Part shown: positions 15,286 to 32,998 of the stretch, piece by piece
Layout of the letters: each line of letters starts with the position of its first letter
How positions within the stretch are numbered: position 1 is the first letter of the stretch
NCBI GenBank assembly: GCA_009773355.1
Contig: WRPG01000058.1
Location: 1 to 35,917, forward strand
DNA from: Limisphaerales bacterium
GTDB taxonomy: Bacteria > Verrucomicrobiota > Verrucomicrobiia > Limisphaerales > SXTU01
DNA: 35,917 nucleotides
Reading direction: 5' to 3'
Translations under genes and position numbers: made by a program
Notes under the pieces: model-generated
Database searches by the model: none
What the model was told of the DNA's origin: nothing
The model's input: the letters and a program-made list of their open reading frames with translations, nothing else

Positions 15286-15291
15286 CGCTTT

Positions 15292-18592: not shown

Positions 18593-18620
18593 TGGGAAAC
18601 CTTGGGGCGAAGATTATTCC
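18593..18620 (-). promoter_or_regulatory. Possible ECF promoter for arsS
   Basis: Minus-strand GGAATA (18620-18615), 14 bp, then GTTTCCCA (18600-18593). The -10-like half differs from that of the ECF sigma gene (GTTTCGCA) by one base and the spacer is one base shorter. Its end lies 6 nt from the arsS ATG, the same close spacing seen at other members, so any mRNA would be leaderless. Confidence 0.5.
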
Positions 18621-20617
18621 CCCAGTCGCAGGCAGAGCAGCTCCTTCGGCGAGCGGAGGTAGAGGCGGTCTCCCACGAAGGCTGGGTGGGCCATCGAGTC
18701 CACCGCCTTGCCGGGAAAAGGGCGCAAATGCGAGATGACCTGATAGCGGTCCCCCGTGGCGTCGAGCAGCAGCAGGTCGCCGCCGATTGTCCAGACGAGC
18801 ACGCGGTCGGGGCCGGCGACGAGCGTGACGTGGTCGTGGAACATGTCGTTGGACACCCGCCAAAGAGTTTTCAAACCGGTGCTCAAATCGAGGCAGAACA
18901 TATCGCCGTAAGCCGTGGCGAAGACCTTGCCGTTCACCACGGCGGGCGTGCACGTGTCGGGTGCGAGGTCCTTGTTCTTCAGTGTCGGTGTGGCGACGAG
19001 CCGTCCCTGGCGATCAAACGCATGCAGGCGCGTCGCGTTGTTCTCGGCGGCGAGGAGCAACTGACTGCCCACCACGACGGGTGTCGTGACGTTGAAGTCC
19101 GCGCCGGCGGGCGGCACCAGTTCCCACAGGCGACGGCCCGTCTGCGGATCCCACCCGCCGAGGCTGGCCACGTCGTAGCCGATGACTTGCGCCACCCCAT
19201 CGAAGTTGCCGTGGATGAACGCCGAGTAAGCAGCCGCGTGGCCGGGTGTTTTCCAAATGACCTTGCCCGTGCGCCGGTCGAGCGCGACGACTGACGCCTC
19301 CTTTGCGCCGGGGGCGATGATGAGTTTGTCATCGAGCACCAGTGGCGAGACCGACGCGCCCCACGTCAGCCGCGGCGTGCGGAACTCGTCGAACAGGTGC
19401 GCCTTCCAGACCACCTTGCCGGTCGCCAACTCGACACAATGGAGGTGACCGAGCGCGCCTTGCAGGTAGGCCAGCCCGTCGTGAATCACCGGCGTCGCGC
19501 GCGGGGCGTTCGAGTAGTCCAGCTCGTCAGGCGCGGAGTATTCGAGCCGCCAGACTTCCTTGCCGTTGGTCGCCTTGAGGCAGCGGAACAAATCTCGCTT
19601 GGCGTCCGCGGTCTTGTCCGGCACGAGGACGAACTGCGTGGTCGCCGCCGGACCGGCCATCGCCGGACCTGTGAGTGGTGCTGACCAGAGGCGCTTCGGC
19701 TGGACCAGGAGCCGGCGGGGAAGCTGCGGCACGAAGCCCTTGCGGCCCGGCCCGCGCCAGTCCGCCCACTCCATCACCGGCTCCGGGCGGAGCGACACGA
19801 AGCCGGCCTTGCTCTCCAGCGCGGCGAGCAATGCCGGCGACTTGCTCACGGCCGCGAGCGCGTCGGCGATTTGTTTTTCCAGCGCGGCGTCCACTGCATC
19901 GGTGGCGAAGACGCGGCTGAAAGGCACGGCGTCGGTGGCGGCGAGCACGCGGACGGAACCTTTGTCGAGCTTGCCGCAACCTTCGAGCAACGGTGGGAGG
20001 AAGTCGGAGACCACCGCTGCGTCTGCTTCGCCGTCCGCGAGTGCAAGCGCCGCCGCATCCATGCTCCCGAAGCTTTTGACTTTCGCCTCGCTCTTCGCAG
20101 CAGCCAGCGCGCGCTGCGCGGCACCGTGGGTCTCTTCGTCCTCGACTGGGCCGAGGGCAATGATTTTTCCGGCCAGGTCGGCCAGTGATTTCGCGGTGCT
20201 GGTCTGGCGGACGAGGAAGACGCCTTTGAGTTCCGTCGCGCCAGCGCGGTCGGTCAACGCGGCAAGCGGGCGGACGGGGAGATTGCGCTTCCGGGCGTCG
20301 AAGCGCACCACCGAGTCCTTGCCGACGATGAGATGGGGCGGACCGGACACCAGTTCGAGCGCGAGCGCGAGGCTTTCTTCGAACGTGATGGTGACCGGAC
20401 GGCCGAGCACCTTTTTCAAGTGCACCGCAAGCTGGCTGTAGCGCCGCTGGCCTGTGCCCGGGACGCACGAGCACGAGAGCGGGAGCGCCAGCGGGTCCAT
20501 CACGATGAGTCGCACCGGCTCCTTCGTGGCTGCGAGGACGGGCCGCGCCAGCGCGAGCACCGCCCCGGCGATCAGACGGGTTCCCCAACGCCGGCGGGAG
20601 AGCGGTTCAGACGGCAC
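18614..20617 (-). CDS. Phosphonate-type binding protein fused to PQQ beta-propeller
   Basis: A 667-residue exported protein with two parts. After a signal peptide (SRRRWGTRLIAGAVLALARP, cut near VLAA), residues ~35-285 resemble PhnD-type substrate-binding proteins of the phosphate/phosphonate/arsenate class: QRRYSQLAVHLKKVLGRPVT, SLADLAGKIIALGPVEDEET, HGAAQRALAA and DAAVVSDFLPPLL. Residues ~300-667 are a PQQ-type beta-propeller with repeated ATGKVVWKA, RRTGKVIWKT and QTGRRLWEL blades. The fusion is unusual to me. Placed between the NHL protein (6 bp upstream) and arsS, it probably senses or captures an arsenic- or phosphorus-containing ligand in the periplasm (inference). Confidence 0.8.
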   Translation of the reverse strand: MPSEPLSRRRWGTRLIAGAVLALARPVLAATKEPVRLIVMDPLALPLSCSCVPGTGQRRYSQLAVHLKKVLGRPVTITFEESLALALELVSGPPHLIVGKDSVVRFDARKRNLPVRPLAALTDRAGATELKGVFLVRQTSTAKSLADLAGKIIALGPVEDEETHGAAQRALAAAKSEAKVKSFGSMDAAALALADGEADAAVVSDFLPPLLEGCGKLDKGSVRVLAATDAVPFSRVFATDAVDAALEKQIADALAAVSKSPALLAALESKAGFVSLRPEPVMEWADWRGPGRKGFVPQLPRRLLVQPKRLWSAPLTGPAMAGPAATTQFVLVPDKTADAKRDLFRCLKATNGKEVWRLEYSAPDELDYSNAPRATPVIHDGLAYLQGALGHLHCVELATGKVVWKAHLFDEFRTPRLTWGASVSPLVLDDKLIIAPGAKEASVVALDRRTGKVIWKTPGHAAAYSAFIHGNFDGVAQVIGYDVASLGGWDPQTGRRLWELVPPAGADFNVTTPVVVGSQLLLAAENNATRLHAFDRQGRLVATPTLKNKDLAPDTCTPAVVNGKVFATAYGDMFCLDLSTGLKTLWRVSNDMFHDHVTLVAGPDRVLVWTIGGDLLLLDATGDRYQVISHLRPFPGKAVDSMAHPAFVGDRLYLRSPKELLCLRLGE

Positions 20618-20623: not shown

Positions 20624-21730
20624 TCAGTCCTGCTTGGCCAGCACCCGGATGATGTGCGCGCGCACGTCCATCACGTAGATGCGGCTGGCGTCGTGGTTGA
20701 CCTCCATCGGGATGTAGCAGGATTGCGCGGCAAGCTGGCTGCCCTGGTCGAACTTGGTCGTGTCCACATACCCGACGAGCCCGAGGAAGGTGCCGTCCTG
20801 CGCGTATTTCTTCACGCGGCCCACGCCGGACTCGCATGTGTAGAGCACGCCACCGGGACCGAAGTCGAAGTTGCACGGATTGCAGCACGCGGCGAAACCG
20901 GCGAGGCTCTCGCGGTCGCGCCGGCCCCAGGTGCCGAGCGGTTTTCCGTCGAGGTCGAAGCGATTGACGCGGTGGCGGGAGTTCTCGGCGATGAGCAGCT
21001 CGCCCTTGGCCACGCGCAGGTCAATGTGGCTGCAACAGCCATATTGCCGCTCGACGATGAGCTTCGGCTCGGAGAGGTCGCGCTTGAAGCGGTAGAAATC
21101 CTCCGTGGCGCGCAGGCTGTTGCCCATGCCCAGCGCGAGATAGACGTGCGTGGCGTCGGCGCAAAGGCCGGCGGCCTGCGCCTTCTGGCCGGAGAGCTTG
21201 TCCGTGTCCAGCATCCGGACGAGCTTCCCCTCGGCGGTGAATTGCGCGAGCTGTCCGCCGCCCGCGACATACACCGTCCCGTCATCGCAGCCGAAAATCA
21301 TTTTGGGCTGAAGGCCGCCGGACATCGGCCAGGTGGCGAGGATTTTGCCCTCCGAGCTAACGACCTTGAGCGCGTAAGCGTGGCCCGCGCGGTCAATCGC
21401 CAGCGCCGGGTTGATGCCGCCGCGCGCGCTGGGGTCGTTCTGGCGGGGGTCCGTGCGCTTGCCGGGCGGCGGCGCAAGCACGCGGGGTGCGTGGGCCGAC
21501 ACGCCACCTTCGGCCCACGAAACGCCCACCAGCAGATTTCCCTTGGCGTCCATCGCGATAGTCTTGAGCAAACCCTCGGGGCCGATGGAAAAACGGATGG
21601 GCGCGATTTCCTTGTGCGTCGGCGTCTCCAGCGAGGCGGCTGGCACGCGGAGCGGGACGGAAAGGCCGGCCATCGCCAGCGCGGCCCAGGCTAGTGCGAA
21701 TCGGGGGAATGAGCTGGGGTTGGTCTTCAT
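20624..21730 (-). CDS. Exported NHL-repeat protein with vicinal cysteines
   Basis: A 368-residue protein with an N-terminal signal peptide (FALAWAALAMAGLSVPL) followed by a beta-propeller of NHL type: LLKTIAMDAKGNLLVGVSW, GELLIAENSRHRVNRFDLDG, GPGGVLYTCESGVGRVKKYA and SRIYVMDVRAHIIRV. It carries nine cysteines in the mature part, including two vicinal pairs, YGCCSH (C232/C233) and ACCNPC (C282/C283/C286). That pattern could bind soft metals or As(III) (inference). Its stop is 6 bp before the SBP-PQQ fusion, so the two are co-expressed. No enzymatic motif is visible. Confidence 0.82.
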   Translation of the reverse strand: MKTNPSSFPRFALAWAALAMAGLSVPLRVPAASLETPTHKEIAPIRFSIGPEGLLKTIAMDAKGNLLVGVSWAEGGVSAHAPRVLAPPPGKRTDPRQNDPSARGGINPALAIDRAGHAYALKVVSSEGKILATWPMSGGLQPKMIFGCDDGTVYVAGGGQLAQFTAEGKLVRMLDTDKLSGQKAQAAGLCADATHVYLALGMGNSLRATEDFYRFKRDLSEPKLIVERQYGCCSHIDLRVAKGELLIAENSRHRVNRFDLDGKPLGTWGRRDRESLAGFAACCNPCNFDFGPGGVLYTCESGVGRVKKYAQDGTFLGLVGYVDTTKFDQGSQLAAQSCYIPMEVNHDASRIYVMDVRAHIIRVLAKQD

Positions 21731-21842: not shown

Positions 21843-23024
21843 TCACCCGCAGGCGCCATTGCCCCCGTCGCAGCACTGGCTGGCGGCGGTGGTGGCGTCG
21901 TAGTGCTGGCCCTTCGTCTCGCGCGGATGGCGCAGGCGCGGGCCGGTGCAGTCAAAGGGCTTCGCCTCGGACAGCGGCACTTCGCGCAGCGGCTCCACGA
22001 AGGCGAAGTGTGGACGATACGGCTCCTTCCGATAGAGCTGATACGTCTTGTCGCACACGGCGTAGCGGCGGCCGCGTTCCATCCGGTGCCCGTCGTCGTC
22101 GAGCACTTCCCGGAACGGCCCGAGGTAAATCACCGCCTGCTGCCGGTCGAAGCAGGGGCCTTGCTTGCCCTTGAACGCCTGCACGGTGACGCTGCGGAAC
22201 TCGATGCCCTCGACCGTGCGCCACGGCGCGTCGTCGCGCTTGAGCAACTGGATGCCGTAGAAGCCAGCGTCGGCGAAGGCCTTCAGAAAGCCTTCCTCCG
22301 TGAGCGCGCCGCTGAGGCAGCCGCTCCACAGTTCCGGGTTGTGCTGCAAGTGCTCCGGCACTTCCTCGTCGGCAACGATGTCCGAGATGACGGCGCGGCC
22401 GCCTTTCCGAAGCACGCGGAAAATCTCGCCGAACAACTGCCGCTTGGCGCGCGGCTCGACGAGGTTCAGCACACAGTTGGAGACGACCACGTCTACGGCG
22501 TCAGTGGCGACGAGGGGATGGCGCACGCGCAATTCCTCGGCCAGCTCGTCGGCGGCGAGGAAGGACGCGGCGTCCGTGATGGGATGCCGCTGCAACTCGC
22601 GGTCGAGCCGTTCGAGATCAAGCGCGAGGTCCTGGATGCGGCCTTTGCGGAACTCGACGTTCGCGAAGCCGACTCGCTCCGCCACGACGGGCGCGTTGCG
22701 GCGGGCGACTTCGAGCATGGCGTCAGTCATGTCCACGCCGATGACCTTGCCGGTCGCGCCGACGACCTGTGCGGCGATGAAGCAGATTTTCCCCGTGCCG
22801 CTGCCGAGGTCCAGGACGGTCTCGCCGGGCCGCAACCAGCGCGACGGGTCGCCGCAGCCGTAGTCCTTCTCGATGACCTCGGGCGGGATGATCGTGAGCA
22901 GATCGCGGTTGTATTCGACCGGACAGCACAAGGCGGCCTCGGGCGCGCGCGCGGCGCTGGCGTAGCGTTGCTTGACGATGGCCTCGGTGGAGGGGCGTGG
23001 GGCGGTGGCAGTCATGGTTTCCAA
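21843..23024 (-). CDS. arsM: ArsM-like arsenite S-adenosylmethyltransferase
   Basis: A 393-residue class I SAM-dependent methyltransferase of ArsM type. The SAM motif VLDLGSGTGKICF is at ~70-82. Cysteines fit the As(III)-binding set: C57 in KDYGCGDPS, C184 in VVSNCVLNL and C236 in WSGCLSGAL. Other family features are VIGVDMTDAMLEVAR and AVISDIVADEEVPEHLQ. The C-terminal ~100 residues follow the larger arsenosugar-cluster form, ending with a cysteine-rich QCCDGGNGACG tail. ArsM transfers methyl groups to arsenite. It comes 40 bp after the anti-sigma gene, and the downstream genes include arsS, so methylated arsenic is probably an arsenosugar intermediate. The ATG at 23015 is an alternative start. 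Confidence 0.88.
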   Translation of the reverse strand: METMTATAPRPSTEAIVKQRYASAARAPEAALCCPVEYNRDLLTIIPPEVIEKDYGCGDPSRWLRPGETVLDLGSGTGKICFIAAQVVGATGKVIGVDMTDAMLEVARRNAPVVAERVGFANVEFRKGRIQDLALDLERLDRELQRHPITDAASFLAADELAEELRVRHPLVATDAVDVVVSNCVLNLVEPRAKRQLFGEIFRVLRKGGRAVISDIVADEEVPEHLQHNPELWSGCLSGALTEEGFLKAFADAGFYGIQLLKRDDAPWRTVEGIEFRSVTVQAFKGKQGPCFDRQQAVIYLGPFREVLDDDGHRMERGRRYAVCDKTYQLYRKEPYRPHFAFVEPLREVPLSEAKPFDCTGPRLRHPRETKGQHYDATTAASQCCDGGNGACG

Positions 23025-23064: not shown

Positions 23065-23799
23065 TCACAGGTAGCGCTTCATCGCGTCCGGGTCCATGTG
23101 GCCGGCGAGCAGGAAAGTCTGGCCGCCCCGCGTCCACGCGGCGGTGTTCACGTCGCCGACCCGTGCGAATTGCGGCTGGCCGTCGGCCGGCAGACCGGGC
23201 AACTGGCCCGCGTCGAGCACGAACAAATCCACATGCTTCCCCTCCAGGCCGAGGCACATCATCGTGACGCGGCGGCCCTGCCATTCGAGGATGCGGCAGC
23301 CCTCGTAGCGCTGGCCTTTCAGTTGCTCCGAGAGCGCGAGTTCCGCCGGCTGCTGCCGGGCACGGAGCCACTGCTGAATCTCCGGGAAGCTGGCGGCCAT
23401 CACATTCACATGCGGTCCTTGCTCGGCAAGGCGGAGCAGCTCCGCCGGCTGGCTGCTGGCCAGCGCGGGGCCGGGGCGCAAGGCGCGAGGCAGAAGCACA
23501 ATGCCCAGCAGCACCACGATGGCCGCCGCCGCCGCGAGCCACACGGGCCGCCGTTGCCAGACCGGCACGACGATGACGCTGCGCGCCGCGAGCAGTTGGG
23601 TCTTCAAGTCCGGTGGCACGGGGAAGCTGCCGAAGCTCCGCGCCAGTCGCGTGTCCACGGCCTGTTCCTCGGCGAACCACCGCGCCAGCTCCGGGTCGCG
23701 CTTCAGCATGTCCAGCGCCTCGGCGAACTGCGGGTCGCTCTGGTCCTGCCCGTCCACGCGGCAGGCGCGCAGGATGAATTTGGCGGTTTCTCGGGTCAT
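23065..23799 (-). CDS. Putative anti-sigma factor
   Basis: A 244-residue single-span membrane protein. The N-terminal ~85 residues are cytoplasmic and helical (FILRACRVDGQDQSDPQFAE). A transmembrane segment follows (WLAAAAAIVVLLGIVLLP, about residues 87-104), then a ~130-residue outer domain with VTMMCLGLEGKHVDLFVLDA and a final AAWTRGGQTFLLAGHMDPDA, similar to anti-sigma C-terminal domains. No classical zinc-binding HxxxCxxC is present. It is 4 bp after the ECF sigma gene, the usual position for its regulator. A role in holding the sigma factor inactive until an envelope signal arrives is inferred. Confidence 0.75.
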   Translation of the reverse strand: MTRETAKFILRACRVDGQDQSDPQFAEALDMLKRDPELARWFAEEQAVDTRLARSFGSFPVPPDLKTQLLAARSVIVVPVWQRRPVWLAAAAAIVVLLGIVLLPRALRPGPALASSQPAELLRLAEQGPHVNVMAASFPEIQQWLRARQQPAELALSEQLKGQRYEGCRILEWQGRRVTMMCLGLEGKHVDLFVLDAGQLPGLPADGQPQFARVGDVNTAAWTRGGQTFLLAGHMDPDAMKRYL

Positions 23800-23803: not shown

Positions 23804-24355
23804 CTAATTCTGGTTGGCCTGGTCCTGGTCCAGCGCTTCCGGCTCGGCGGCGGACTTTTGGAGGCGGACCGCCAGGCGTTTGCGGAGCAGTTCCTTGCCC
23901 CGGGACAGCCGGGACATCACGGTGCCGATGGGGATGTCCAGCACCTCGGCGATGTCCTTGTAGGCGAGTCCCTGGAGGTAAAAGAGCACCAGCGGCGCGC
24001 GGAAGTGCTCCTCGATTTGCAGCGCGGTGTCCATCGCCAGGACGCCGTCCACCTCGTCCGCCATCTCGGGCGTGAAGTGCGGCAGCTCCGGTTCCACGGC
24101 GGAAATCTCAAAGTGCGGGAAGCGCGTCGCGTGCCGCCGCCAGCCGAGGAAGACGCGGTAAAGCGTGGTGAACAGCCAGGTCTTCACCTTGCTGCGGTCG
24201 CGGAGCTGGCCGCCCTTGGTGAGCAGGCGGACGTAGGTCTCCTGCGTCAGCTCGGCGGCATCGTCCGGGTTGCCCGCCAGGCTGAACGCGAACCGATACA
24301 GCGGCTCGTGATGCACCGCCACAATCTGCTCGTAGTCCAGGTCGTCCACGTTCAT
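23804..24355 (-). CDS. ECF-type RNA polymerase sigma factor
   Basis: A 183-residue extracytoplasmic-function sigma factor. Region 2 is YEQIVAVHHEPLYRFAFSLA with DDAAELTQETYVRLL and KVKTWLFTTLYRVFL; region 4 is RAPLVLFYLQGLAYKDIAEV with LDIPIGTVMSRLSRGKEL. The ATG at 24355 gives MNVDDLDYEQ; a GTG two codons later (24349) is an alternative and fits better if the mRNA starts just after the promoter motif at 24355-24383, which reaches the ATG. It likely directs its own operon (anti-sigma, arsM, NHL, SBP-PQQ, arsS) and other local sites sharing the motif. Confidence 0.9.
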   Translation of the reverse strand: MNVDDLDYEQIVAVHHEPLYRFAFSLAGNPDDAAELTQETYVRLLTKGGQLRDRSKVKTWLFTTLYRVFLGWRRHATRFPHFEISAVEPELPHFTPEMADEVDGVLAMDTALQIEEHFRAPLVLFYLQGLAYKDIAEVLDIPIGTVMSRLSRGKELLRKRLAVRLQKSAAEPEALDQDQANQN

Positions 24356-24816
24356 GCGAAACGGGTGGCAGGGAGTTTATTCCCGTCCGGATTCCGGGGC
24401 GAACCTTTCGTGCCGTTCAGGCGGAGTCGGCGCAAGCGGAGTCCGTGCAGCGTGCTGAAGCACTCACGCACCACGAAATCAACGGCATCGGCCAGCGGCA
24501 TGCGAATCAGCGAACGGGAAGGACGCACGGCCCCGTTGACGTGCGGCTGCTCCGGGATGCCCAGTTCGACCTCGTCGAGCAGCGAGCCAATCAACCGGTC
24601 CCCCGGCAGGGTGGCGATTTCATCGAGGGCAGATCGGCCATTGATGAGCAACACGGACGGGTCGGTGCGCGACTCCAGCAGGCTGCGGGCGTGGGCGATC
24701 GTCCAGCGGCTCAACTGCACGGGCGAGGGCAGCGCGTCGCTGGAAGTTTCCGACGGCGTGTGGGTGAACCGCGCGATGGCGGCGGACCAGTCTGGGAATG
24801 GCGGTGGGGTGTGCAT
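24352..24816 (-). CDS. Hypothetical protein
   Basis: A 154-residue frame starting MHTPPPFPDW, five bases after the upstream HEAT-TlpA stop; an ATG at 24834 would give six more residues and overlap it. The sequence has plausible protein character (SRWTIAHARSLLESRTDPSV, GDRLIGSLLDEVELGIPEQP) but I recognise no family and see no signal peptide or membrane segment. The end is basic (LRLRRLRLNGTK). It overlaps the sigma gene start by four bases (ATGA), and its 3' end hosts the sigma gene's ECF promoter motif. Confidence 0.55.
   Translation of the reverse strand: MHTPPPFPDWSAAIARFTHTPSETSSDALPSPVQLSRWTIAHARSLLESRTDPSVLLINGRSALDEIATLPGDRLIGSLLDEVELGIPEQPHVNGAVRPSRSLIRMPLADAVDFVVRECFSTLHGLRLRRLRLNGTKGSPRNPDGNKLPATRFA
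24355..24383 (-). promoter_or_regulatory. ECF promoter motif of the sigma gene (autoregulation)
   Basis: Minus-strand GGAATA (24383-24378), 15 bp, then GTTTCGCA (24362-24355). The same nine-base block GGAATAAAC and the same 12-bp spacer to the next block occur before bufA (29880-29908) and before tlpA (29789-29817). The motif runs into the ATG, so either translation begins at the GTG at 24349 or the mRNA is leaderless. Confidence 0.65.
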
Positions 24817-24820
24817 GGGT

Positions 24821-26044
24821 TCAACGGAGTTCATCGAGCATGGCTTCAAAGGCGGCGACCGAACGAGTGCCGAGGAAACGCCGGCGCACGCGGCCTTGCG
24901 GGTCGAGCAGGACGTTCGTGGGCAGCTCGTGGCCGAGGAAGCGCGCGCCCACTTCGCCCTGTGCATCGTGGAGCAGCAGATACGTCAGGCCCTTCTCTCG
25001 TGCGAACCGTTGGAGCTTGGCCCGGACTTTCGCCGGGTCCGCACCATGTTCGTGGTCGTCGTCCCCGTGGCTGTGGTCGTGGCCGTCGGGTGCGCCGTCC
25101 AGCGAGACGCCAACAACCGCGAGGTCGTCGGGTCGCTTGCGCTGCAAGGCGACGAGGTCGGGAATCTCCTGCACGCACGACGGGCACCACGTCGTCCAGA
25201 AGTTCAGGAGGACAACCTTGCCGCGAAACTGCGCCACGCTCACGGGCCTGCCCTCGACATCGCCCAGGCAGAATTCCACCGGCGGCCCCGGCAACGGCTG
25301 CGGAGCACGGCTCGTCGCCAGGTCCACGAGCGGCGGAACCTGGTCCGGGTTGGCCGCGTGCCACGCCTTCCAGCGCAGCACCCCCTCGCGCCGCTTCGCG
25401 GCCTCCTTCTCCGCCGCGTCTCCACCGCTGGTGAAATGGCCCGGTGCGCGGATGCCGAAGTCCTGCCCCGTCCAGTGACGCATGGCACCCGCCGTGGCGG
25501 CGACCACCTGCGGCTCCGGGTCGTCCAGCAGCGGGAACACCACCGCGATGGCTTGCGCGGACGGCAGGCGGCGAAGCTGGCTGATACCGAGCAGCCGAAC
25601 GTGTGGGTCCGCGTCGGACAACTGCCGCTGCGCCAGCACCACAAGGCCGGAGGACGGCACGCGACTCAACGCGCCGAATGCTAGTTCCCGCACCGCGAGG
25701 TCCGCGTCGAGCGTCGCCTCCCGGAGCAACGGCTCCGCGCGGGTGCGCCAGGCCGGTTCCTTGTCCGCAAGTTCCTTGAGCAGCCGCACGACCTCGAAGC
25801 GGTGCGGCACCTTGCCGGTCTCCCACAGCCGGCGGAGTTCCGCCATCGGGTCAGACGCGCCGAGGGTCACGGCCCTGATGGCATCGCCCGTCGTCGAATC
25901 GTTGCGCAGCACCAGCCACAAGCCCAGCCGCCGCTGGCCTTCCCGCCCGAACGTCACCGCCAGCACGCTGACGACGACCAGGGCGATGAGCAGCCGGCGC
26001 AGCAGGCGGGAGCGCGACGGGGATGGAGCCGAGGTGGGATTCAT
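24821..26044 (-). CDS. HEAT-repeat/TlpA thioredoxin-like membrane protein
   Basis: A 407-residue protein with three parts. An N-terminal transmembrane anchor (residues ~14-32) is followed by HEAT-like helical repeats at ~55-190 (AVRELAFGALSRVPSSGLVV, PHVRLLGISQLRRLP and PQVVAATAGAMRHW). A TlpA/ResA-like thioredoxin domain comes from ~252, with VVLLNFWTTWCPSCVQEIPD carrying C287/C290 and ELPTNVLLDPQGRVRRRF late. An inserted histidine/aspartate-rich loop at 319-334 (DGHDHSHGDDDHEHG) may bind metal. The ATG at 26044 starts MNPTSAPSPS; an upstream ATG would make a long unlike extension. A sigma-54 promoter and a structured leader lie upstream. Confidence 0.85.
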   Translation of the reverse strand: MNPTSAPSPSRSRLLRRLLIALVVVSVLAVTFGREGQRRLGLWLVLRNDSTTGDAIRAVTLGASDPMAELRRLWETGKVPHRFEVVRLLKELADKEPAWRTRAEPLLREATLDADLAVRELAFGALSRVPSSGLVVLAQRQLSDADPHVRLLGISQLRRLPSAQAIAVVFPLLDDPEPQVVAATAGAMRHWTGQDFGIRAPGHFTSGGDAAEKEAAKRREGVLRWKAWHAANPDQVPPLVDLATSRAPQPLPGPPVEFCLGDVEGRPVSVAQFRGKVVLLNFWTTWCPSCVQEIPDLVALQRKRPDDLAVVGVSLDGAPDGHDHSHGDDDHEHGADPAKVRAKLQRFAREKGLTYLLLHDAQGEVGARFLGHELPTNVLLDPQGRVRRRFLGTRSVAAFEAMLDELR

Positions 26045-26058
26045 CGAGTGTAAAGGGG

Positions 26059-26138
26059 CAGACCGGGGCCGTGCTCGGCGGGCACGGGGAAGGAGGGGTG
26101 CCACCTCACCGCAGGGGGCGGTTGCCGGCCCCGGTCTG
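26059..26138 (-). ncRNA. Candidate structured leader RNA (13-bp closing stem)
   Basis: In the transcript (minus) direction a 13-bp perfect stem, CAGACCGGGGCCG (26138-26126) pairing with CGGCCCCGGTCTG (26071-26059), encloses 54 nt. This holds three further hairpins: CCGC/GCGG, GGTG/CACC and GTGC/GCAC. The outer stem ends 14 nt before the HEAT-TlpA ATG, where it could mask the ribosome-binding region. I cannot match it to a known riboswitch class; it is inferred from pairing only. Confidence 0.45.
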
Positions 26139-26260
26139 AAAGGAATTGGGAGCAGCCCCGGTTGTGCGGGACCAGCCCGATCCGACCGCACATTGACCAC
26201 TCGAACCACAGCCGGAATCGAATTGAGTCAGTCAACCAGAACAGGAGCAGCAGCGATTCC

Positions 26261-26276
26261 GCCAGCAACGTGCCAG
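26261..26276 (-). promoter_or_regulatory. Sigma-54 promoter of the HEAT-TlpA gene
   Basis: The minus strand reads CTGGCACGTTGCTGGC: a perfect -24 box TGGCACG with GC of the -12 box at the correct spacing (TGGC instead of TTGC). Transcription would begin about 26250 and run through a ~205-nt leader to the ATG at 26044. No ACGA-N4-TCGT site was found nearby, so the activator may differ from that at 11908. Confidence 0.6.
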
Positions 26277-26303
26277 GAGTGAGCCGAGGGTGGGGGATTG
26301 CGC

Positions 26304-26729
26304 TCATGTTTCCAACGCCAGCCGCACGGCGGCGGTGAGCGACTCGATGGTGAATGGCTTGGCGAGCACCATGGGCTTCAACTCGCCCGTCTCGGCCGGT
26401 TCGAGGAGCGAGTGATGATGCCCGCTCATGAACAGCATGTCCGTGTTCGGCCAGCGCGTCCGCACTTCACGGAACAGCGCCCAGCCGTCTTGCTCCGGCA
26501 TCGTGATGTCGGACAACACCAGGTCCACCGCGCCCCGGCACCGCTCCAGCAGCGCCAATGCTTCGGCCACCGAACCCGCGGTGAGCACCGTGAGGTTCTC
26601 CCGGTCAAGCACCCGCCGGACAAGGTCGCGCACCTGGGATTCATCATCCACCACGAGGACGGTGTGACGGAGCGATGCTTCCGCCGCCGGGCTGCTGCCT
26701 TCATTGGGGGGTTGGTTGAGGTGGCTCAT
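26304..26729 (-). CDS. Orphan response regulator (receiver domain only)
   Basis: A 141-residue CheY-like receiver. The acidic pocket is in HTVLVVDDESQ (D28/D29), the phosphorylation site is D74 in VLSDITMPEQDG, and the conserved lysine is in VLAKPFTIESL. A ~20-residue N-terminal tail precedes it. No output domain is present, so it probably acts by binding a partner protein. The ATG at 26729 is preferred; a longer frame to 26909 would overlap the secreted protein. It ends the operon that starts with TlpA at 29781, 19 bp after the secreted-protein stop. The cognate histidine kinase is not in the window. Confidence 0.85.
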   Translation of the reverse strand: MSHLNQPPNEGSSPAAEASLRHTVLVVDDESQVRDLVRRVLDRENLTVLTAGSVAEALALLERCRGAVDLVLSDITMPEQDGWALFREVRTRWPNTDMLFMSGHHHSLLEPAETGELKPMVLAKPFTIESLTAAVRLALET

Positions 26730-26748
26730 CGAGAAATCGGCGGTGGGT

Positions 26749-27498
26749 TCAAGGCACGGCTCCGACGCGAAAGTAGCGTGCGCTCCCGGCAGGCATGGTG
26801 ACGGTGAGTTGAAACCGGCCCGCTGCGATGGGAGTGATGACCGGGACCTGCGTCTGCCAGGTCTGGCCGGCAAAGAGATTGGTCCGGCTCTCAACCAGGT
26901 GGTTGGCATCGGTAAACGGCGAGGTGACTTCCAGTTGAGCGGTCGTGCCCGTGACTTGGAGCTGGGTCACCCGCACTTCCGCCGTCGTGAAGTTTCCAAA
27001 GTTCGCCGGGCCGCTGAACCAGTTGGTCGTAACCGTGTCGGCCAGCTTGAACGGCTGCAGCGACTCGCCACTGCGCGGCAGCGGCAGGAAAGCAGCGGTG
27101 GATGGCCAGATGCCCGCCGCCACGGCGACACTCGTGCGCCCCAAGCTGGCTGAACTGCCAAATTTGATGCCCGTGATGATGGAGCCGGGACTGGCAAAAT
27201 TGCTGTCTCGGTATAGCCATACGTCGCTCGCCGTGGCGCTCAATCCGGATAGGGTGAAGGTCTTGGATTCGCCTGGACCGAAGCTGGTTCCCGCCGGAAT
27301 GCCCGAGCCGTAGTTGAAGCTGTGACAGAACGGCAGGAACGAGGCGACGGTGAAGCCTGCCGTGCCGGTGTGGGTGACCTCGACCTGGCTGGTCGCGGGA
27401 TTGACCTCGGTGATGCGCAGTTCACTCACGTCCGCGTGCAACGCGCCGGCCAGCGCCAGCAGCAGCGGCGCGGCGAAGAATGTGGCGCCGGGTTTCAT
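26749..27498 (-). CDS. Secreted protein of unknown function
   Basis: A 249-residue exported protein with a clear signal peptide (MKPGATFFAAPLLLALAGAL, cut near LHAD). The mature part is Gly/Ser/Thr-rich beta-type sequence: VSELRITEVNPATSQVEVTH, IPAGTSFGPGESKTFTLSG and SPFTDANHLVESRTNLFAGQ. It resembles lamin-tail-like secreted domains (inference) seen in Verrucomicrobiota and Planctomycetes. The final TMPAGSARYFRVGAVP is typical of such proteins. Its start overlaps the DUF3179 stop by four bases. Confidence 0.7.
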   Translation of the reverse strand: MKPGATFFAAPLLLALAGALHADVSELRITEVNPATSQVEVTHTGTAGFTVASFLPFCHSFNYGSGIPAGTSFGPGESKTFTLSGLSATASDVWLYRDSNFASPGSIITGIKFGSSASLGRTSVAVAAGIWPSTAAFLPLPRSGESLQPFKLADTVTTNWFSGPANFGNFTTAEVRVTQLQVTGTTAQLEVTSPFTDANHLVESRTNLFAGQTWQTQVPVITPIAAGRFQLTVTMPAGSARYFRVGAVP

Positions 27499-28511
27499 GG
27501 CTGCCAAAGCCGGGTCTCCGGGTAAAACGCCTGCCACGCAAACCAGTAGGCCAGCACATGGGGCGCGGGCCGCCCGTCCAGCGTGACGCTGGGGTGACGG
27601 GTGGTGGCTCGATAGAGAACTTCCAATCGCTGACCGGCGAACTCCGTGCTGGCACTCCGCGCTTCGGGCAATTGCGCGACCGGGAACGCGATGGCCTGAC
27701 CGTCCACCACCACGCCGAGCACCCACGCCTTGTTCGGCAGTTCCTTCCGTCGTGTCGGCACGGGGAAGATGGTTTCCGGCGCGTGCTCATAGCCGGCGTA
27801 AGGCAGGTTCTCGTAATCTCGCGCGAAGCCGGTGTCAATGGAGAGCACTTCACCGTCCGGATGCCGCTCCCGCCATGCGGCCCAGGTGAGGTGCTCGCTG
27901 ACGAGCAGGTTGAGCCGGGTGCGGACTTGTGACCCGCTGACCGCCTCCATCTTGAGCTGCGACCAGAGCGACTCGGTCTGCCGGTCATACATCAGCACGT
28001 CGCTTTGGTAGAGCAGCCCAGACACGCCGAAGCTCAAGACCCGCTCCCCGACGCGCCGGTCAAACACCATCGCCGTCCCGCACAGCGGACAGAAGGTCAC
28101 AGCGACGGCCGTGCCCCCCAGTTCGTCGTTGACGATTTCATGCCACACCAAGATGCGCAGCGGGTAGGCGCGGGTCACACCGTTCACCGTCATGCTGATG
28201 ACCACATCGTCGTCGCGCAGGAATCCGGCCCGCGCCGGGGCAACGAACTTGGGCCGGTCAATGGCCGGGATGCCGTCGCGCGGCGGGCCGCCCGAGAGAA
28301 TCTGTTCGCGGGGGATGGTGGCATTGCCGAGATCGAAGCCGTTGTTCGCACCAACTGCGGCGGGAGGCCGTTCGGCGGCCAAGACTTCGCAAACCTCCGG
28401 TGCCGCTTCGGGCAGGAAAGGAAATACCAGGCCAACAACGGCGGTCGCACCCAGGCCGAGGCCGAGGCAGACGCCCCAGCGAAGTTTTTTCTTGGGCTGG
28501 GCAGCGTTCAT
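27495..28511 (-). CDS. DUF3179 domain membrane/exported protein
   Basis: A 338-residue DUF3179 protein. An N-terminal hydrophobic segment (WGVCLGLGLGATAVVGLVFP) is followed by the domain: DGIPAIDRPKFVAPARAGFL, GVTRAYPLRILVWHEIVND, then the invariant VTFCPLCGTAMVFDRRV with its CxxCG pair. Later blocks include GLLYQSDVLMYDRQTESLWS and PYAGYEHAPETIFPV. Function is undescribed. It lies in the TlpA-led operon, overlapping both neighbours by ATGA (28508-28511 and 27495-27498). Confidence 0.9.
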   Translation of the reverse strand: MNAAQPKKKLRWGVCLGLGLGATAVVGLVFPFLPEAAPEVCEVLAAERPPAAVGANNGFDLGNATIPREQILSGGPPRDGIPAIDRPKFVAPARAGFLRDDDVVISMTVNGVTRAYPLRILVWHEIVNDELGGTAVAVTFCPLCGTAMVFDRRVGERVLSFGVSGLLYQSDVLMYDRQTESLWSQLKMEAVSGSQVRTRLNLLVSEHLTWAAWRERHPDGEVLSIDTGFARDYENLPYAGYEHAPETIFPVPTRRKELPNKAWVLGVVVDGQAIAFPVAQLPEARSASTEFAGQRLEVLYRATTRHPSVTLDGRPAPHVLAYWFAWQAFYPETRLWQP

Positions 28512-29191
28512 GGTGCATGCCGTTCTTTCGGCGCGGCAGCCTCCGCGAGGGTGAGTTGCACCTGCTCGACGACGACTCGAAAGGACGAGCCAGTGTCGTC
28601 GCCGTCCGCGTGCAACCAGAGGGCCGTCGTGAGCAGTGGCTCGGGCAAGTCCTGCGCAATCACGAAGTGCCCGTCCGGCTGTGGCGTGGCGGTGATGCGT
28701 TCGAGAAACAGGTCGCTGGCTGGATGCACGCGGACACGGCCCACCTGCTGCGCCTCCGTTGCGAGGTTGAACGAGTGGATGCGACGGACTCCACCCTTCG
28801 GGCCGAGCACGTCATCCATCTTCCGCAGCCATTCCGGGGCGGTGCGCCGCTCGACCAAGGTGAGCGCCTGTCCGCCCGGCTCCACCAACCCGACGCGCAG
28901 CAGCGCATCGTCGAAACCCTTGGTCCAATGCTTGTCAGGCGGCACGCGCAGGCTCCCTGTGAAACGGCCCCGCACTTCCAACCGCGTCACGCGGGCTGGT
29001 TCCCGCAACACATGCACCAGCGGCCCGGCTGACTTGCGGACCTCGAACTCCAATCCAGCGGCAGTATGCCGCACCACATTGGCCGGGATGCGGTCGAACT
29101 TCAGCAACTGCCATCCCTGCGGCTCCGCCACGGGGAGGATCAGCAGGGCGCACAGCGCGTCGGGGTTCCAACTGTCACGGAGGAAGGACAT
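28508..29191 (-). CDS. Hypothetical protein
   Basis: A 227-residue protein with no family I recognise. It starts MSFLRDSWNPDALCALLILP, which could be a weak signal/anchor segment. It contains a repeated-looking beta pattern (EGRVTRLEV-like at PARVTRLEVRGRFTGSLRVP), FDDALLRVGLVEPGGQALTL and SSFRVVVEQVQLTLAEA near the end. It follows TlpA by 26 bp and is coupled (ATGA) to DUF3179, so it belongs to that operon. Function unknown. Confidence 0.75.
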   Translation of the reverse strand: MSFLRDSWNPDALCALLILPVAEPQGWQLLKFDRIPANVVRHTAAGLEFEVRKSAGPLVHVLREPARVTRLEVRGRFTGSLRVPPDKHWTKGFDDALLRVGLVEPGGQALTLVERRTAPEWLRKMDDVLGPKGGVRRIHSFNLATEAQQVGRVRVHPASDLFLERITATPQPDGHFVIAQDLPEPLLTTALWLHADGDDTGSSFRVVVEQVQLTLAEAAAPKERHAP

Positions 29192-29217
29192 GGGTTTGGG
29201 GACGGCTTGGGGCTGAC

Positions 29218-29781
29218 TCAGTAACGAGCGGCAGGTTTCGCCGGCGCGGGGACCGGAGCCGCCGCCAGGAGCGGCTTGATGGCCTTCTCGAAGTCAGCCT
29301 TCGACACAACGCCGACGTGCCGGCCGGCGATTCTGCCGTCCCGACTGATGATGAACGTCGTCGGGATGCTGCGCACTCCGCCGAATGCCTGCGCGGTCTT
29401 CAGGTCTCCGAGCACCACCGGATAGTTGATGCCGAACTGCTTCATGAAGGGCTTGAGCACCCGGGCACCTTCCTCGTCGAGCGAAACGCCGACCACCACC
29501 AGGCCCTGGTCGCCGTAGGTTTTTTGCAGCTCAACGAAACTGGGAATTTCCGCTTTGCACGGCGGGCACCAGGTGGCCCAGAAATCCAGCAGCACCACCT
29601 TGCCCTTGAAGTCGGCGGACGAGACGGTCTTGCCGTCCACGTCCTTGAGCGACCACGCCGGGGCGGTGACACCAGCAATCGGCTTGGAGTCGGAGGCGCG
29701 GGTGGGAACAGTGAGCACCGCCAGCAGCACCGCTGCGGTCAGCGTGGAAAGAATTCGGGTAAGTGAGAGTTGAAGTTTCAT
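29218..29781 (-). CDS. TlpA-family thiol-disulfide protein
   Basis: A 187-residue exported thioredoxin-like protein. A signal peptide (ILSTLTAAVLLAVLTVPT) precedes the TlpA/ResA fold: SLKDVDGKTVSSADFKGKVV, the active site FWATWCPPCKAEIP with C72/C75, VVGVSLDEEG and the cis-proline loop VRSIPTTFIISRDGRIAG. It ends with a Pro/Ala-rich tail. It heads the leftward operon and is divergent from the bufferin precursor. An ECF motif ends 8 nt before its ATG, so its mRNA may be nearly leaderless. It likely reduces or exchanges disulfides in the envelope, possibly for the Cys-rich bufferin peptide (inference). Confidence 0.9.
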   Translation of the reverse strand: MKLQLSLTRILSTLTAAVLLAVLTVPTRASDSKPIAGVTAPAWSLKDVDGKTVSSADFKGKVVLLDFWATWCPPCKAEIPSFVELQKTYGDQGLVVVGVSLDEEGARVLKPFMKQFGINYPVVLGDLKTAQAFGGVRSIPTTFIISRDGRIAGRHVGVVSKADFEKAIKPLLAAAPVPAPAKPAARY

Positions 29782-29788
29782 ACACCGG

Positions 29789-29817
29789 TGCGAATGGCCT
29801 GCCCGGATGTTTATTCC
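29789..29817 (-). promoter_or_regulatory. ECF promoter motif of tlpA
   Basis: Minus-strand GGAATA (29817-29812), 15 bp, CATTCGCA (29796-29789). It shares the extended block GGAATAAAC and the terminal TTCGCA, at identical spacing, with the sigma-gene and bufA sites. The ATG begins 8 nt after the motif. Confidence 0.65.
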
Positions 29818-29879
29818 ACGCGCAGGCCGAAATTCTCGTTGGTCACATTGCCTCCAACAAGAGGCCCGCTGGAGGTGTG

Positions 29880-29908
29880 GGAATAAACCTCACGGCTGCC
29901 GGTTCGCA
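29880..29908 (+). promoter_or_regulatory. ECF promoter motif of the bufferin operon
   Basis: Plus-strand GGAATA (29880-29885), 15 bp, GGTTCGCA (29901-29908). It matches GGAATAAAC and TTCGCA of the sigma-gene site at identical spacing. The predicted start is ~29915, leaving a ~70-nt leader before the bufA ATG at 29985. It and the tlpA site form a divergent pair in a 203-bp intergenic region. Confidence 0.65.
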
Positions 29909-29984: not shown

Positions 29985-30278
29985 ATGAAACACACCACCA
30001 AAACCCTGCTCGTCACCGCCGCCATCACCGGCCTGCTGACGGGTGCCACCGCCTCCACCTCCCGCGCCGCCGACAAGGGCGAGAAGCCCGGCAAGCAGGC
30101 CGAGGGCAAGAAGCTGCCCAAGGTCCATGACTGCGCCGGCAAGAACGACTGCAAGGGCCTCGGCGGCTGCAAGACCGCCAAGAACGACTGCAAGTTCAAG
30201 AACGACTGCAAAGGCAAGGGCGGCTGCAAGGTCTCCCAGGCCGACATTGACAAGGCGTTCGGCAAGAAAAAGAAGTAA
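29985..30278 (+). CDS. bufA: Bufferin-type Cys-rich RiPP precursor
   Basis: A 97-residue precursor. A signal peptide (TLLVTAAITGLLTGATAS, cut near SRAAD) is followed by a Lys-rich spacer and a duplicated core. C50-x5-C56-x5-C62 and C69-x5-C75-x5-C81 repeat the pattern CxGKNDCKG-x-GGC, CKFKNDCKGKGGC. It ends with a lysine tail. The MNIO enzyme gene follows. In bufferins such cysteines are modified and the peptide binds copper in the periplasm; modification here is inferred. Symbol given by analogy to the bufA2-like group. The ATG at 29985 is preferred because upstream codons in this frame cross the promoter. Confidence 0.85.
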   Translation: MKHTTKTLLVTAAITGLLTGATASTSRAADKGEKPGKQAEGKKLPKVHDCAGKNDCKGLGGCKTAKNDCKFKNDCKGKGGCKVSQADIDKAFGKKKK

Positions 30279-30351: not shown

Positions 30352-31221
30352 ATGCCTGCCAATTCCTTCAACGGCTTCACCGACTACGGCGTCGGCATCG
30401 GCCTGCGCGTGCCGCACTACCGGCACATCCTCACCCGCAAGCCGGTGGTGGACTGGTTTGAAATCATCTCTGAGAACTTCATGGTGGACGGTGGGCGACC
30501 GCTCGAAGTGCTCGACCAGATTCTGGAGCAATACCGCGTCGTGCAGCACGGCGTCTCGCTCTACTTTGGCTCGGCGGACGAGCTGAACCGCGAGCAGCTC
30601 AAGAAGCTCAAGCGCCTCGTGCGCCGCACGAAAACGCCGTGGCTCTCCGACCATCTTTGCTGGGGCAGCGTGGATGGCCGCTACACGCACGACCTGCTGC
30701 CGGTGCCCTACACGCTGGCCGCCGCGAAGCACGCCGCGCGGAAGATTCGCGAGGCGCGCGACTTCCTCGAAGTGCCGCTCGCCATCGAGAACATCAGCAG
30801 CTACGCCGAGTTCCGCGCCTCCACGATGACGGAGTGGGAGTTCCTCACCGAGGTCGTGGAGCGCGCCGATTGCGGCATTCTGCTGGACGTGAACAACATT
30901 TACGTCAGCTCGCAGAACCACAGCTTCGACCCGTTCACGTATCTGGACCGCATCCCCGCGCACCGGGTCGCGCAAATCCACATCGCCGGGCACACGCGCT
31001 ACGACCGCTACATCCTCGACACGCACGACCATCCGGTGATTCCGCCGGTGTGGCGGCTATACACTCACGCCACAAGTCGGACGGGCCGCACCGCGACGTT
31101 GCTGGAGTGGGATGCGAACATCCCGTCGTTCGAGGAAGTCCATCGCGAGGCGCTCAAGGCGCGCCAGTTCATGGGGGAACTGGTCGAAGGGGCCGCCGGA
31201 AGCAATCCATCGTCATGCTGA
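30352..31221 (+). CDS. bufB: MNIO-family (DUF692) RiPP maturation enzyme
   Basis: A 289-residue DUF692 protein, now called multinuclear non-heme iron-dependent oxidative enzymes (MNIO). The TIM-barrel blocks are DYGVGIGLRVPHYRHIL, VDWFEIISENFM, VVQHGVSLYFGSADELN, WLSDHLCWGSVDGRYTHD and LPLAIENISSY-like (PLAIENISSYAEFRA). Metal-ligand segments are DVNNIYVSS, QIHIAGHTRYDR, DTHDHPV and LLEWDANIPSFEEVHRE. Members modify cysteines of the partner precursor, needing a DUF2063-type partner for binding, as encoded downstream. The ATG at 30352 follows the hairpin. It overlaps the FemAB-like gene by seven bases. Confidence 0.92.
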   Translation: MPANSFNGFTDYGVGIGLRVPHYRHILTRKPVVDWFEIISENFMVDGGRPLEVLDQILEQYRVVQHGVSLYFGSADELNREQLKKLKRLVRRTKTPWLSDHLCWGSVDGRYTHDLLPVPYTLAAAKHAARKIREARDFLEVPLAIENISSYAEFRASTMTEWEFLTEVVERADCGILLDVNNIYVSSQNHSFDPFTYLDRIPAHRVAQIHIAGHTRYDRYILDTHDHPVIPPVWRLYTHATSRTGRTATLLEWDANIPSFEEVHREALKARQFMGELVEGAAGSNPSSC

Positions 31222-32018
31222 CGTTTGAATTTCCCCTCCACCGCCTCCCCTTCGTGAAAGCCCGCCATCATTGGTTCCATGAGCGACCGGCCGCTGCGGA
31301 CGCACTGGGGTTGACCATCCACTACCACTGCCGCCTTACCGCGCCCGTGCCAGGCTTCCGGCGGACGCCGAAGTTCACGAAGCTCGTGGACCTGCGCCAG
31401 TCGGAGGAGGAAATCTTCAACGCCTTTGGCAAGGACACCCGCCACAAGCTCAAGCGTGGCATCGCCGAGGGGTTGCGCTTCAGCATCGTCGAAGACCGCA
31501 ACGAACTGCGGGACACCTACAACGAGTTCGCCTCGGCCAAACGGCTGCCCCTCATCGAGGAGCGCGTCCTAACCGCCTACTGGCCCAGGCTGCTCGCCAC
31601 GAAGCTGGCGCAGGATGGCAAGGTGCTCGTCATGCACGCCTACCTGCTGGACCGGCAGTGCCTGCGCGCCTGCCAGTCGCACGCGGCGGCGCTGTTCCGC
31701 TCGACCGATGACCGGCAGCAGCAAAACCTGATCGGCCGCGCAAACCGGCTGCTGCATTACCTCGACATGCTCGCCCTCAAGGAGCGGGGCTTCGAGGTGT
31801 TCGACATCGGCGGCTACGCGCTGAACACGACCGACCCCGAATTGCAGGAGGTGAACGCCTTCAAGGACAGCTTCGGCGGGCGGCTGGTCGAGGAAAGTGT
31901 TTACACCTCGCTGCCGTTGCTGGTGCTGCGCGGGTTCAGCGGCTGGTTGCGTGGCGTGCCGAAGCGCCAGCCGCTCCCCGCATCCTCCGAGCCACAGCGC
32001 GCGGATGGCACAGCTTGA
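31215..32018 (+). CDS. FemAB/GNAT-like protein in the bufferin cluster
   Basis: A 267-residue protein of the FemAB/GNAT-like acyl- or aminoacyl-transferase type. Features are IFNAFGKDTRHKLKRGIAEG, KRLPLIEERVLTAYWPRLLA, VLVMHAYLLDRQCLRACQSH, and the late IGRANRLLHYLDMLALKERG with FEVFDIGGYALNTTD, which match the family's WxxI-x-DxGG end region in form. It overlaps the MNIO stop by seven bases (31215-31221) and is nearly flush with the DUF2063 gene. FemAB-type genes are not standard bufferin-cluster members. It could add a group to the peptide or the envelope (inference). Confidence 0.75.
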   Translation: MLTFEFPLHRLPFVKARHHWFHERPAAADALGLTIHYHCRLTAPVPGFRRTPKFTKLVDLRQSEEEIFNAFGKDTRHKLKRGIAEGLRFSIVEDRNELRDTYNEFASAKRLPLIEERVLTAYWPRLLATKLAQDGKVLVMHAYLLDRQCLRACQSHAAALFRSTDDRQQQNLIGRANRLLHYLDMLALKERGFEVFDIGGYALNTTDPELQEVNAFKDSFGGRLVEESVYTSLPLLVLRGFSGWLRGVPKRQPLPASSEPQRADGTA

Positions 32019-32041
32019 GTATCTGCAACCCTCCCGTTCCC

Positions 32042-32998
32042 ATGTCCGCACCAGCCCCCAACTCTTCCCCGCGAGTCTCCCGTCGCCAGCCCACGCCGAA
32101 AGCACCCGACGCACGGACGGTGGCGAGCCTGAGCCGGCTCCAATTGCTCGTGGCCAGCGCGACGATGCGCGAGCTGAACGAAGATTTCGAGATGCGGCCC
32201 CGCTGGACGGATGGCCGCTCGATGCGTGCCCGGGCCAGCCGTTTCATCAAGCCCAACGACCGGCTCACGGCCTTCGAGCGGCTGGAAATCTACAACCGCC
32301 AATACTGGTTCCGCCTGCTGGAGAGCTTTCACGAGGACTTCCCGGGCTTGCGCGCGGTGCTCGGTCAGGAGCGTTTCGTGCGGCTCGCGGTCGCGTATCT
32401 GTCCGCGCATCCCTCGACCTCCTTCACGCTGCGCAACCTGGGCCGGCATCTGGTGCGGTTTCTGGAAACCCAGCCCAGCCACACGGCGTTCAACCCCCGG
32501 CTGGTGCTCGACCTCGCGCGCTTGGAATGGGCGCACATCGAGGCGTTCGACAATGCCGCCGAGCCGCCGGTGACGGCGGACGCGCTGCTGGACGCGAACC
32601 CGGCGGAACTCCGCCTGCGATTGCAGCCCCACGTCACACTGCTTCACCTCGCCTACCCGCTGGACGACTTCCTCATCGCGCTGCGCCATGTGGAGGACTC
32701 GCGCGCGGAGACGAGCAATGCGGTGGCGGCGCAACAGTCCCGGCGTGGCATTCATCCCGTGCGCTCACCCAAGCCGCAGCCCGTCTGGCTCGCCACCCAT
32801 CGGCATCGGAACTGCGTGCATTACAAGCGGCTGACCGTGGCGCAGTTTCAGTTGCTCGACGCGCTGCGCCAAGGGCTGCCGTTGGCCGAGGCGTGCGAAC
32901 TGGTCCTGCGCGACTGTTTCCGAACGAAGCCGGAACACTTGCGCCGTTGGTTTGGCGACTGGGCACTGCTCGGCTGGTTCTGGCTGCCCAAGGAGTGA
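32042..32998 (+). CDS. bufC: DUF2063 (BufC-like) partner protein
   Basis: A 318-residue protein. Residues ~20-130 form the DUF2063 domain: VASLSRLQLLVASATM, RASRFIKPNDRLTAFERLEI, YNRQYWFRLLESFHEDFPGL and RFVRLAVAYLSAHPSTSFTL. The C-terminal half contains CVHYKRLTVAQFQLLDALRQ and ends WALLGWFWLPKE. In known systems this protein binds the precursor and the MNIO enzyme. The ATG at 32042 is preferred; a TTG at 32015 overlaps the FemAB stop and would add nine residues. It is third after bufB. Confidence 0.85.
   Translation: MSAPAPNSSPRVSRRQPTPKAPDARTVASLSRLQLLVASATMRELNEDFEMRPRWTDGRSMRARASRFIKPNDRLTAFERLEIYNRQYWFRLLESFHEDFPGLRAVLGQERFVRLAVAYLSAHPSTSFTLRNLGRHLVRFLETQPSHTAFNPRLVLDLARLEWAHIEAFDNAAEPPVTADALLDANPAELRLRLQPHVTLLHLAYPLDDFLIALRHVEDSRAETSNAVAAQQSRRGIHPVRSPKPQPVWLATHRHRNCVHYKRLTVAQFQLLDALRQGLPLAEACELVLRDCFRTKPEHLRRWFGDWALLGWFWLPKE

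Follow-up and report, generated by a model that had tools for sequence, protein, structure and literature searches.

One short two-part block recurs in front of arsenic, thiol-repair and metal-buffering genes on contig WRPG01000058.1 (35,917 nt; assembly GCA_009773355.1) of a Limisphaerales bacterium (Verrucomicrobiota, SXTU01), the whole of which is referred to here as the window. Very probably, one stress-type sigma factor of the extracytoplasmic function (ECF) group, encoded in the window, uses this one shared promoter to turn on its own gene together with genes for arsenic methylation and arsenosugars, an operon for thiol repair and a peptide that buffers copper. For the proposal that the block is the −35/−10 promoter of the ECF factor encoded at 24355-23804, taken together with the regulon and the anti-sigma scheme as a whole, we estimate a probability of about 0.84. 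From the sites, their uniqueness, their conservation and their positions, all read from sequence, we infer promoter activity, the pairing of sigma factor and sites, the signal and the physiology.

The shared block and its uniqueness

In its exact form, the block occurs three times in the window and twice in related forms, and the five candidate promoters are as follows.

24355-24383 (−): sigma operon promoter, autoregulatory by sequence; GGAATAAAC-N14-TTCGCA, site sequence GGAATAAACTCCCTGCCACCCGTTTCGCA
29789-29817 (−): tlpA operon promoter; GGAATAAAC-N14-TTCGCA, 7 nt before the ATG, site sequence GGAATAAACATCCGGGCAGGCCATTCGCA
29880-29908 (+): bufABC operon promoter; GGAATAAAC-N14-TTCGCA, 76 nt before bufA, site sequence GGAATAAACCTCACGGCTGCCGGTTCGCA
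18593-18620 (−): arsS promoter; GGAATAATCTTCGCCCCAAGGTTTCCCA, 6 nt before the ATG, from the weight matrix and the genome-wide pattern
6073-6101 (−): promoter before a tRNA-like element and the DUF5069-DUF547 operon; GGAATAATC-N14-TTCCCA

The three exact sites had been picked out in a sequence-only reading of the window, and their coordinates (24383-24355, 29817-29789 and 29880-29908), strands and identical spacing are all as claimed there. They were described as intergenic or at gene starts; the sigma site just reaches the coding sequence as annotated, since the A that closes TTCGCA is also the A of the annotated ATG at 24355. Two further sites in the window were overlooked, at 18620-18593 (arsS) and 6101-6073.

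All 15 specified bases are the same at the three exact sites, and the 14-base spacers and the flanks are unrelated. The rest of the 6.16-Mb genome (6,158,408 bp in 162 contigs, called G000 in comparisons within the genus) contains no further exact copy. At 65% GC the expected count is 1.3e-5 per window and 0.002 per genome, and 100 dinucleotide shuffles of the window gave no exact match. Allowing up to two mismatches adds one match in the whole genome, the site at 6101-6073.

A looser pattern, GGAATAAN{15,16}YTCBNA, was derived from the sequences that precede sigma relatives; it matches six times genome-wide, against none for the reversed control. Five of these matches lie in this 36-kb contig (sigma, tlpA, bufA, arsS and tRNA-like/DUF5069) and the remaining one is upstream of a paralogous sigma gene on contig C96. 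The scan of intergenic against coding DNA proposed earlier thus finds no scatter through coding sequence, and the genome-wide counts and reversed-pattern controls rule out chance or scattered coding matches as the source of the sites. A weight matrix built from sigma upstream regions only recovers the three known sites, the arsS site at 18620-18593 and the site at 6101-6073. Pooled over 13 genomes, the loose pattern gives 87 matches versus 18 for its control. Searching relatives for the exact 15-mer was discarded as a source of evidence: matches with one mismatch were mostly chance, and only those at sigma, tlpA and bufA loci were informative. The observation of a shared motif is correct, and stronger than first stated.

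The sigma factor and its anti-sigma

23804-24355 (−): ECF sigma factor gene; annotated from the ATG at 24355 (183 aa), with a probable conserved start at GTG 24349-24347
23065-23799 (−): membrane anti-sigma gene; N-terminal cytoplasmic part, one predicted transmembrane helix, and a periplasmic RseB/MucB-C-like domain with Cys168 and Cys182

The sigma protein (183 aa) matches Pfam Sigma70_r2 and Sigma70_r4_2 and TIGR02937, all above cutoff; with Sigma70 regions 2 and 4 only, and a length of about 180 aa, it belongs to the ECF factors (group 4). ECF factors usually recognise their own promoters. Upstream of its relatives in other Limisphaerales the alignment reads GGAATAA, 15-16 bases, (C/T)TC(C/T/G)NA, 3-6 bases and GTG or ATG; this conserved block, with 3-6 nt to the start codon, is what one would expect if an ECF gene is autoregulated and its mRNA leaderless. 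A (G/A)TG two codons inside the annotated start is kept across the relatives, its equivalent in the window being GTG 24349, and from this start 5 nt separate the −10 element and the start codon. In a wider set the block precedes 46 of the 66 family members, and further afield GGAATAA is also found upstream of relatives in Planctomycetota and in some Proteobacteria. The predicted promoter consensus of the family is GGAATAA-N15/16-(C/T)TC(C/T/G)NA, of which GGAATAAAC-N14-TTCGCA would be the form proper to the window sigma. The conserved −35/−10 block upstream of family members points to autoregulation of the sigma gene, and its conservation in many genomes upstream of the orthologues argues for the earlier suggestion that the factor recognises its own promoter.

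Located 4 bp downstream of the sigma gene is the anti-sigma gene, an adjacency kept in most of the 66 sigma loci and consistent with the cotranscribed membrane anti-sigma expected for an ECF factor; gene order was read from the G278 locus (contig PLHK01000125.1, Limisphaerales bacterium bog_1402). Its profile matches, to DUF3379 and anti-sigma models, are weak, and a Pfam scan of the protein yields the weak DUF3379 match alone and no NrsF (PF06532). Across 23 anti-sigmas from the phylum, six columns are invariant, two of which are cysteines C168 and C182 in the predicted periplasmic part. In an AlphaFold model (pLDDT 86), the two cysteines are placed on neighbouring strands (E164-173 and E176-185). 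A fold search with the model, covering mainly residues 135-244 and barely the N-terminal part, matched the predicted periplasmic domain to the C-terminal domain of RseB/MucB (Z 8.5, 2.9 Å over 87 residues); the best match outside RseB/MucB has a Z of 6.2, and values near 8 are only moderately above background. We hypothesise that a disulfide or metal site at C168/C182 would be a natural sensor. In the anti-sigma of the C96 paralogue the second cysteine is missing.

In the proposed scheme, the cotranscribed membrane anti-sigma would keep the sigma factor bound until thiophilic-metal or disulfide stress is registered by the periplasmic RseB-like domain of the anti-sigma, perhaps via the invariant cysteine pair. 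Once freed, the sigma factor would transcribe its own operon with arsM, and also arsS, the tRNA-like/DUF5069/DUF547 operon, the tlpA/DUF3179 operon and bufABC. Transcripts with no leader, or hardly any, would be expected for sigma, tlpA and arsS; leaderless mRNAs are implied by the sigma and arsS sites, which end a few bases before the start codon.

Arsenic genes

21843-23024 (−): arsM-type arsenite methyltransferase gene, third in the sigma operon; NCBIfam ArsM-family matches
20624-21730 (−): NHL-like secreted protein gene, probable sigma operon member from the position of its open reading frame; no Pfam match, function from sequence alone
18614-20617 (−): gene for a phosphonate-binding-like protein with a PQQ/BamB-like beta-propeller; Pfam PF12974 and PF13360
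17639-18586 (−): arsS, arsenosugar biosynthesis radical SAM protein; TIGR04167, 425 bits against a cutoff of 300
16993-17544 (−): peroxiredoxin-like (AhpC/TSA) gene downstream of arsS; Pfam PF00578

The order sigma, anti-sigma, arsM recurs in nine sigma loci. The best profile for ArsM is NF040538 (331 bits, under its cutoff of 500), to which the protein is nearer than to the arsenosugar-type profile NF038099 (135 bits, cutoff 400). From its profile score, ArsS is predicted to be the radical SAM enzyme of arsenosugar biosynthesis.

The arsS gene is present in all eleven genomes of the genus that were examined, and its site is found in the present genome and G007 alone, the two that carry this sigma orthologue; the chance of such a coincidence in two of eleven genomes is 1 in 55. 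In G007 the site precedes the sigma orthologue, which is 96% identical, as well as tlpA and, on another contig, arsS; it also occurs at the DUF5069/DUF547 locus. The same arsS site also occurs at arsS of G140 and G194, and in G140 the loose-pattern matches, found blind, lie before the arsS and tlpA orthologues. The pattern further precedes a gene for S-methyl-5'-thioadenosine phosphorylase (TIGR01694) at G090:C176:155745-155773, an enzyme that could process the ArsS product and so might provide a further step of arsenosugar synthesis.

Bufferins are induced by metals in some bacteria. Because the sigma-arsM operon is conserved and arsS has a site of its own, the regulon joining arsenic genes with the bufferin, as first proposed from the window, is supported at the DNA level; its output could be the joint arsenic/copper response envisaged there.

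The bufferin operon

29985-30278 (+): bufA, putative BufA2-type bufferin precursor, 97 aa; predicted signal peptide, six Cys
30352-31221 (+): bufB, MNIO bufferin maturase; NF050167, 346 bits against a cutoff of 310, and PF05114, E 7e-108
31230-32018 (+): acyltransferase-like open reading frame (GNAT/FemAB-like by eye) between bufB and bufC; no Pfam match
32015-32998 (+): bufC, DUF2063 partner protein; PF09836 above cutoff, HvfC-like profile below cutoff

BufA has six Cys and an N-terminal hydrophobic leader by reading, and matches NF050166 with 39 bits (E 5e-10), below the cutoff of 60. The MNIO maturase and the DUF2063 partner mark the operon as a putative BufA2 bufferin cluster. Among other Verrucomicrobiota genomes, the promoter stands no more than 900 bp upstream of bufB at 20 of the 29 BufB loci, and the reversed pattern at 2 (p about 1.5e-6), a count made with the loose pattern and limited by it. 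The family sigma is present in 26 of the 29 genomes, and in six of these its gene is no more than 2 kb away from bufB and has the same orientation. Methylacidiphilum sp. Phi (CAMCSM010000003.1) and a further Limisphaerales genus have the genes arranged as sigma, anti-sigma, bufA, bufB, bufC, and in each case sigma and bufA are both preceded by the promoter. Control of bufferins by this ECF family thus appears, from site positions, to be phylum-wide and a widespread part of the family; the arsenosugar genes look like a later, lineage-specific addition in Limisphaerales.

NF050166 does not recognise a BufA-like precursor (L139, 11273-11629) that contains CSGKDGC repeats and is encoded in the sigma-antisigma-bufABC-DoxX-like cluster of Methylacidiphilum sp. 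Phi.

The tlpA operon and the tRNA-like operon

29218-29781 (−): tlpA/resA-like periplasmic thiol-disulfide oxidoreductase gene; Pfam AhpC-TSA/Redoxin, ResA-like NF002854 below cutoff
28508-29191 (−): second gene of the tlpA operon; no Pfam match, a 40% homologue at the same place in locus L107
27495-28511 (−): DUF3179 protein gene, third in the tlpA operon; Pfam PF11376
5982-6055 (−): tRNA-Thr(AGT)-like cloverleaf with a CCA end (ARAGORN), between promoter and DUF5069
5500-5952 (−): DUF5069 gene; Pfam PF16798
4730-5503 (−): DUF547 gene of the DUF5069 operon; Pfam PF04784
3976-4764 (−): VTT-domain (TVP38-like) membrane protein gene, probable operon member; Pfam PF09335
2450-4129 (−): MerA-like FAD oxidoreductase gene, probable operon member; NF004991 above cutoff

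The site is present at eight of nine TlpA orthologues. Within the genus, orthologues of TlpA, and likewise of DUF5069, are confined to the two genomes with this sigma orthologue. Sites orthologous to that at 6101-6073 exist in G140 and G007, and the G007 orthologue of the DUF547 gene has a promoter site of its own.

The tRNA-like element folds at −29.3 kcal/mol (z −2.1) and is 99% conserved in G007. Its three copies (window 6055-5982 on the minus strand, G007:C49:2853-2926 and G007:C167:2362-2435) all have the promoter in front, and one has no DUF5069 gene behind it. The element was found in none of 56 other relatives. It is not matched by the Rfam tRNA model, and an Rfam scan of the window returned no known RNA at gathering thresholds.

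Weighing the single-regulon reading

The reading of the sites as one ECF regulon is supported by the genome-wide counts given above and by independent genomes, with sigma, tlpA, bufA and arsS sites in other families, and with co-occurrence of the sigma orthologue and the arsS site within the genus. Several points weigh against it. The −35 of the arsS site coincides with the GAA-TAA end of the gene at 18614-20617, including the stop codon of this upstream gene, and conservation in G007 is partly explained by coding. All that is left of the bufferin operon in G007 is a C-terminal bufC remnant beside tlpA (L103, 4625-4909), which suggests loss of the operon in this sister species; the arsenic and thiol part thus stands without the bufferin, which would be dispensable to the regulon. 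Many Limisphaerales genomes with family sigma and bufferin genes have no bufA site, making the sigma-bufferin link lineage-dependent. The genus is known from fragmented draft genomes, probably metagenome-assembled. Finally, other ECF paralogues of the genome, such as the C96 sigma, use a similar −35, leaving the −10 as the sole discriminator, and crosstalk is possible.

A general rule that any genome with the family sigma controls its bufferin was also considered and rejected, several Limisphaerales bufABC loci being without the site.

The paralogue provides the strongest alternative, in which the sites are ECF promoters and their cognate factor is the C96 sigma, or both factors jointly, the window sigma being one of several inputs. 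Upstream of the C96 paralogue, which is 54% identical, stands GGAATAAGCC-N-CTCTAA, with the same −35, and this −35 is common to the sigma family from Verrucomicrobiota to Planctomycetota. Nevertheless, AAC and TTCGCA are both shared by the tlpA and bufA sites with the promoter of the window sigma only, and the congeners G004, G005, G006 and G010 have a C96-type paralogue and no arsS site, which makes this assignment improbable.

Distinctly less probable is that the block is an operator, recognised by a DNA-binding repressor or activator such as a metal-responsive regulator. Control of the ArsR, CueR or CsoR type is frequent at metal, metalloid and thiol genes such as these; however, the loci examined show no gene for such a regulator next to the sites, and the block is asymmetric and two-part, with spacing fixed at 15-16 nt, keeps in this genome a constant distance of 5-7 nt to the start codons of sigma, arsS and tlpA, and is most strongly conserved upstream of the ECF genes themselves. 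Recent duplication of one non-functional sequence, such as a small repeat or mobile element, would account for the same 15 bases in three places within 6 kb, but is scarcely credible given the unrelated 14-nt spacers and flanks, and is contradicted by the same arrangement at orthologues in other families.

Relation to known systems

ECF control of bufferins is already known: in Caulobacter crescentus exposed to copper, bufferin clusters and MsrPQ belong to the SigF-NrsF regulon (PMC8224329). The circuit predicted here follows a like logic with components of other origin: it shares with the Caulobacter system an ECF sigma and a membrane anti-sigma acting on bufferin operons, in Caulobacter including a DUF692 cluster in trans (CCNA_02999-03001), and the inclusion of periplasmic thiol or oxidation repair, by MsrPQ there and by TlpA here. 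In contrast to NrsF, the present anti-sigma is predicted to have a single transmembrane helix and an RseB-like domain, and the predicted targets include arsM, arsS, DUF5069 and DUF3179 genes. The Caulobacter SigF promoter probably differs from this motif.

The window operon resembles described BufA2/BufBC clusters (PMC12452194) in its putative six-Cys BufA2-type precursor, MNIO maturase, DUF2063 partner and bufABC order, and differs in the extra reading frame between bufB and bufC. A survey of MNIO clusters found sigma genes in Buf1 but not in Buf2 clusters (PMC12452194), whereas in several Verrucomicrobiota we find BufA2 clusters to which a sigma-antisigma pair is linked, and ECF-type promoters on BufA2 operons appear widespread in the phylum. 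With RpoE-RseA-RseB and AlgU-MucA-MucB the anti-sigma shares, in its model, a periplasmic domain like the RseB/MucB C-terminal domain; here, the sensor domain and the anti-sigma part are in one polypeptide, with an invariant Cys pair. Known ArsM-ArsS arsenosugar genes are matched by an ArsS above the TIGR04167 cutoff, an ArsM-family methyltransferase in the sigma operon and the phosphorylase gene with a site in G090; the ArsM here lies below the arsenosugar-specific cutoff.

Searching the literature for the promoter string, for arsenosugar genes under ECF control or for joint control of ArsM/ArsS and bufferins brought up nothing relevant, which is no proof of absence. What appears to be new is the ECF/anti-sigma pair, unrelated to SigF-NrsF, and the fusion with genes for arsenosugars. 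Both put two functions that are poorly understood into a regulatory context open to testing, namely why bacteria make arsenosugars and which signals call for bufferins; the single-regulon reading predicts that the two are used together, and specifies the transcripts, where their 5' ends should lie and which cysteines would serve as the sensor. A bolder conjecture, which we consider doubtful, is that a phylum-wide ECF/anti-sigma class directly senses thiophilic metals and metalloids by the periplasmic Cys pair, that Limisphaerales recruited arsenosugar synthesis and an ECF-driven tRNA-like RNA to it, and that the bufferin peptide buffers arsenic as well as copper.

Two other regulatory genes lie in the window: a second ECF-like sigma gene (ECF42/SigJ-like by eye; 15280-16542, plus strand), which has no relation to the motif, and a NifA/NorR-like sigma-54 activator gene (11908-13506, plus strand), relatives of which, 53-81% identical, occur in several sigma or arsenosugar loci elsewhere.

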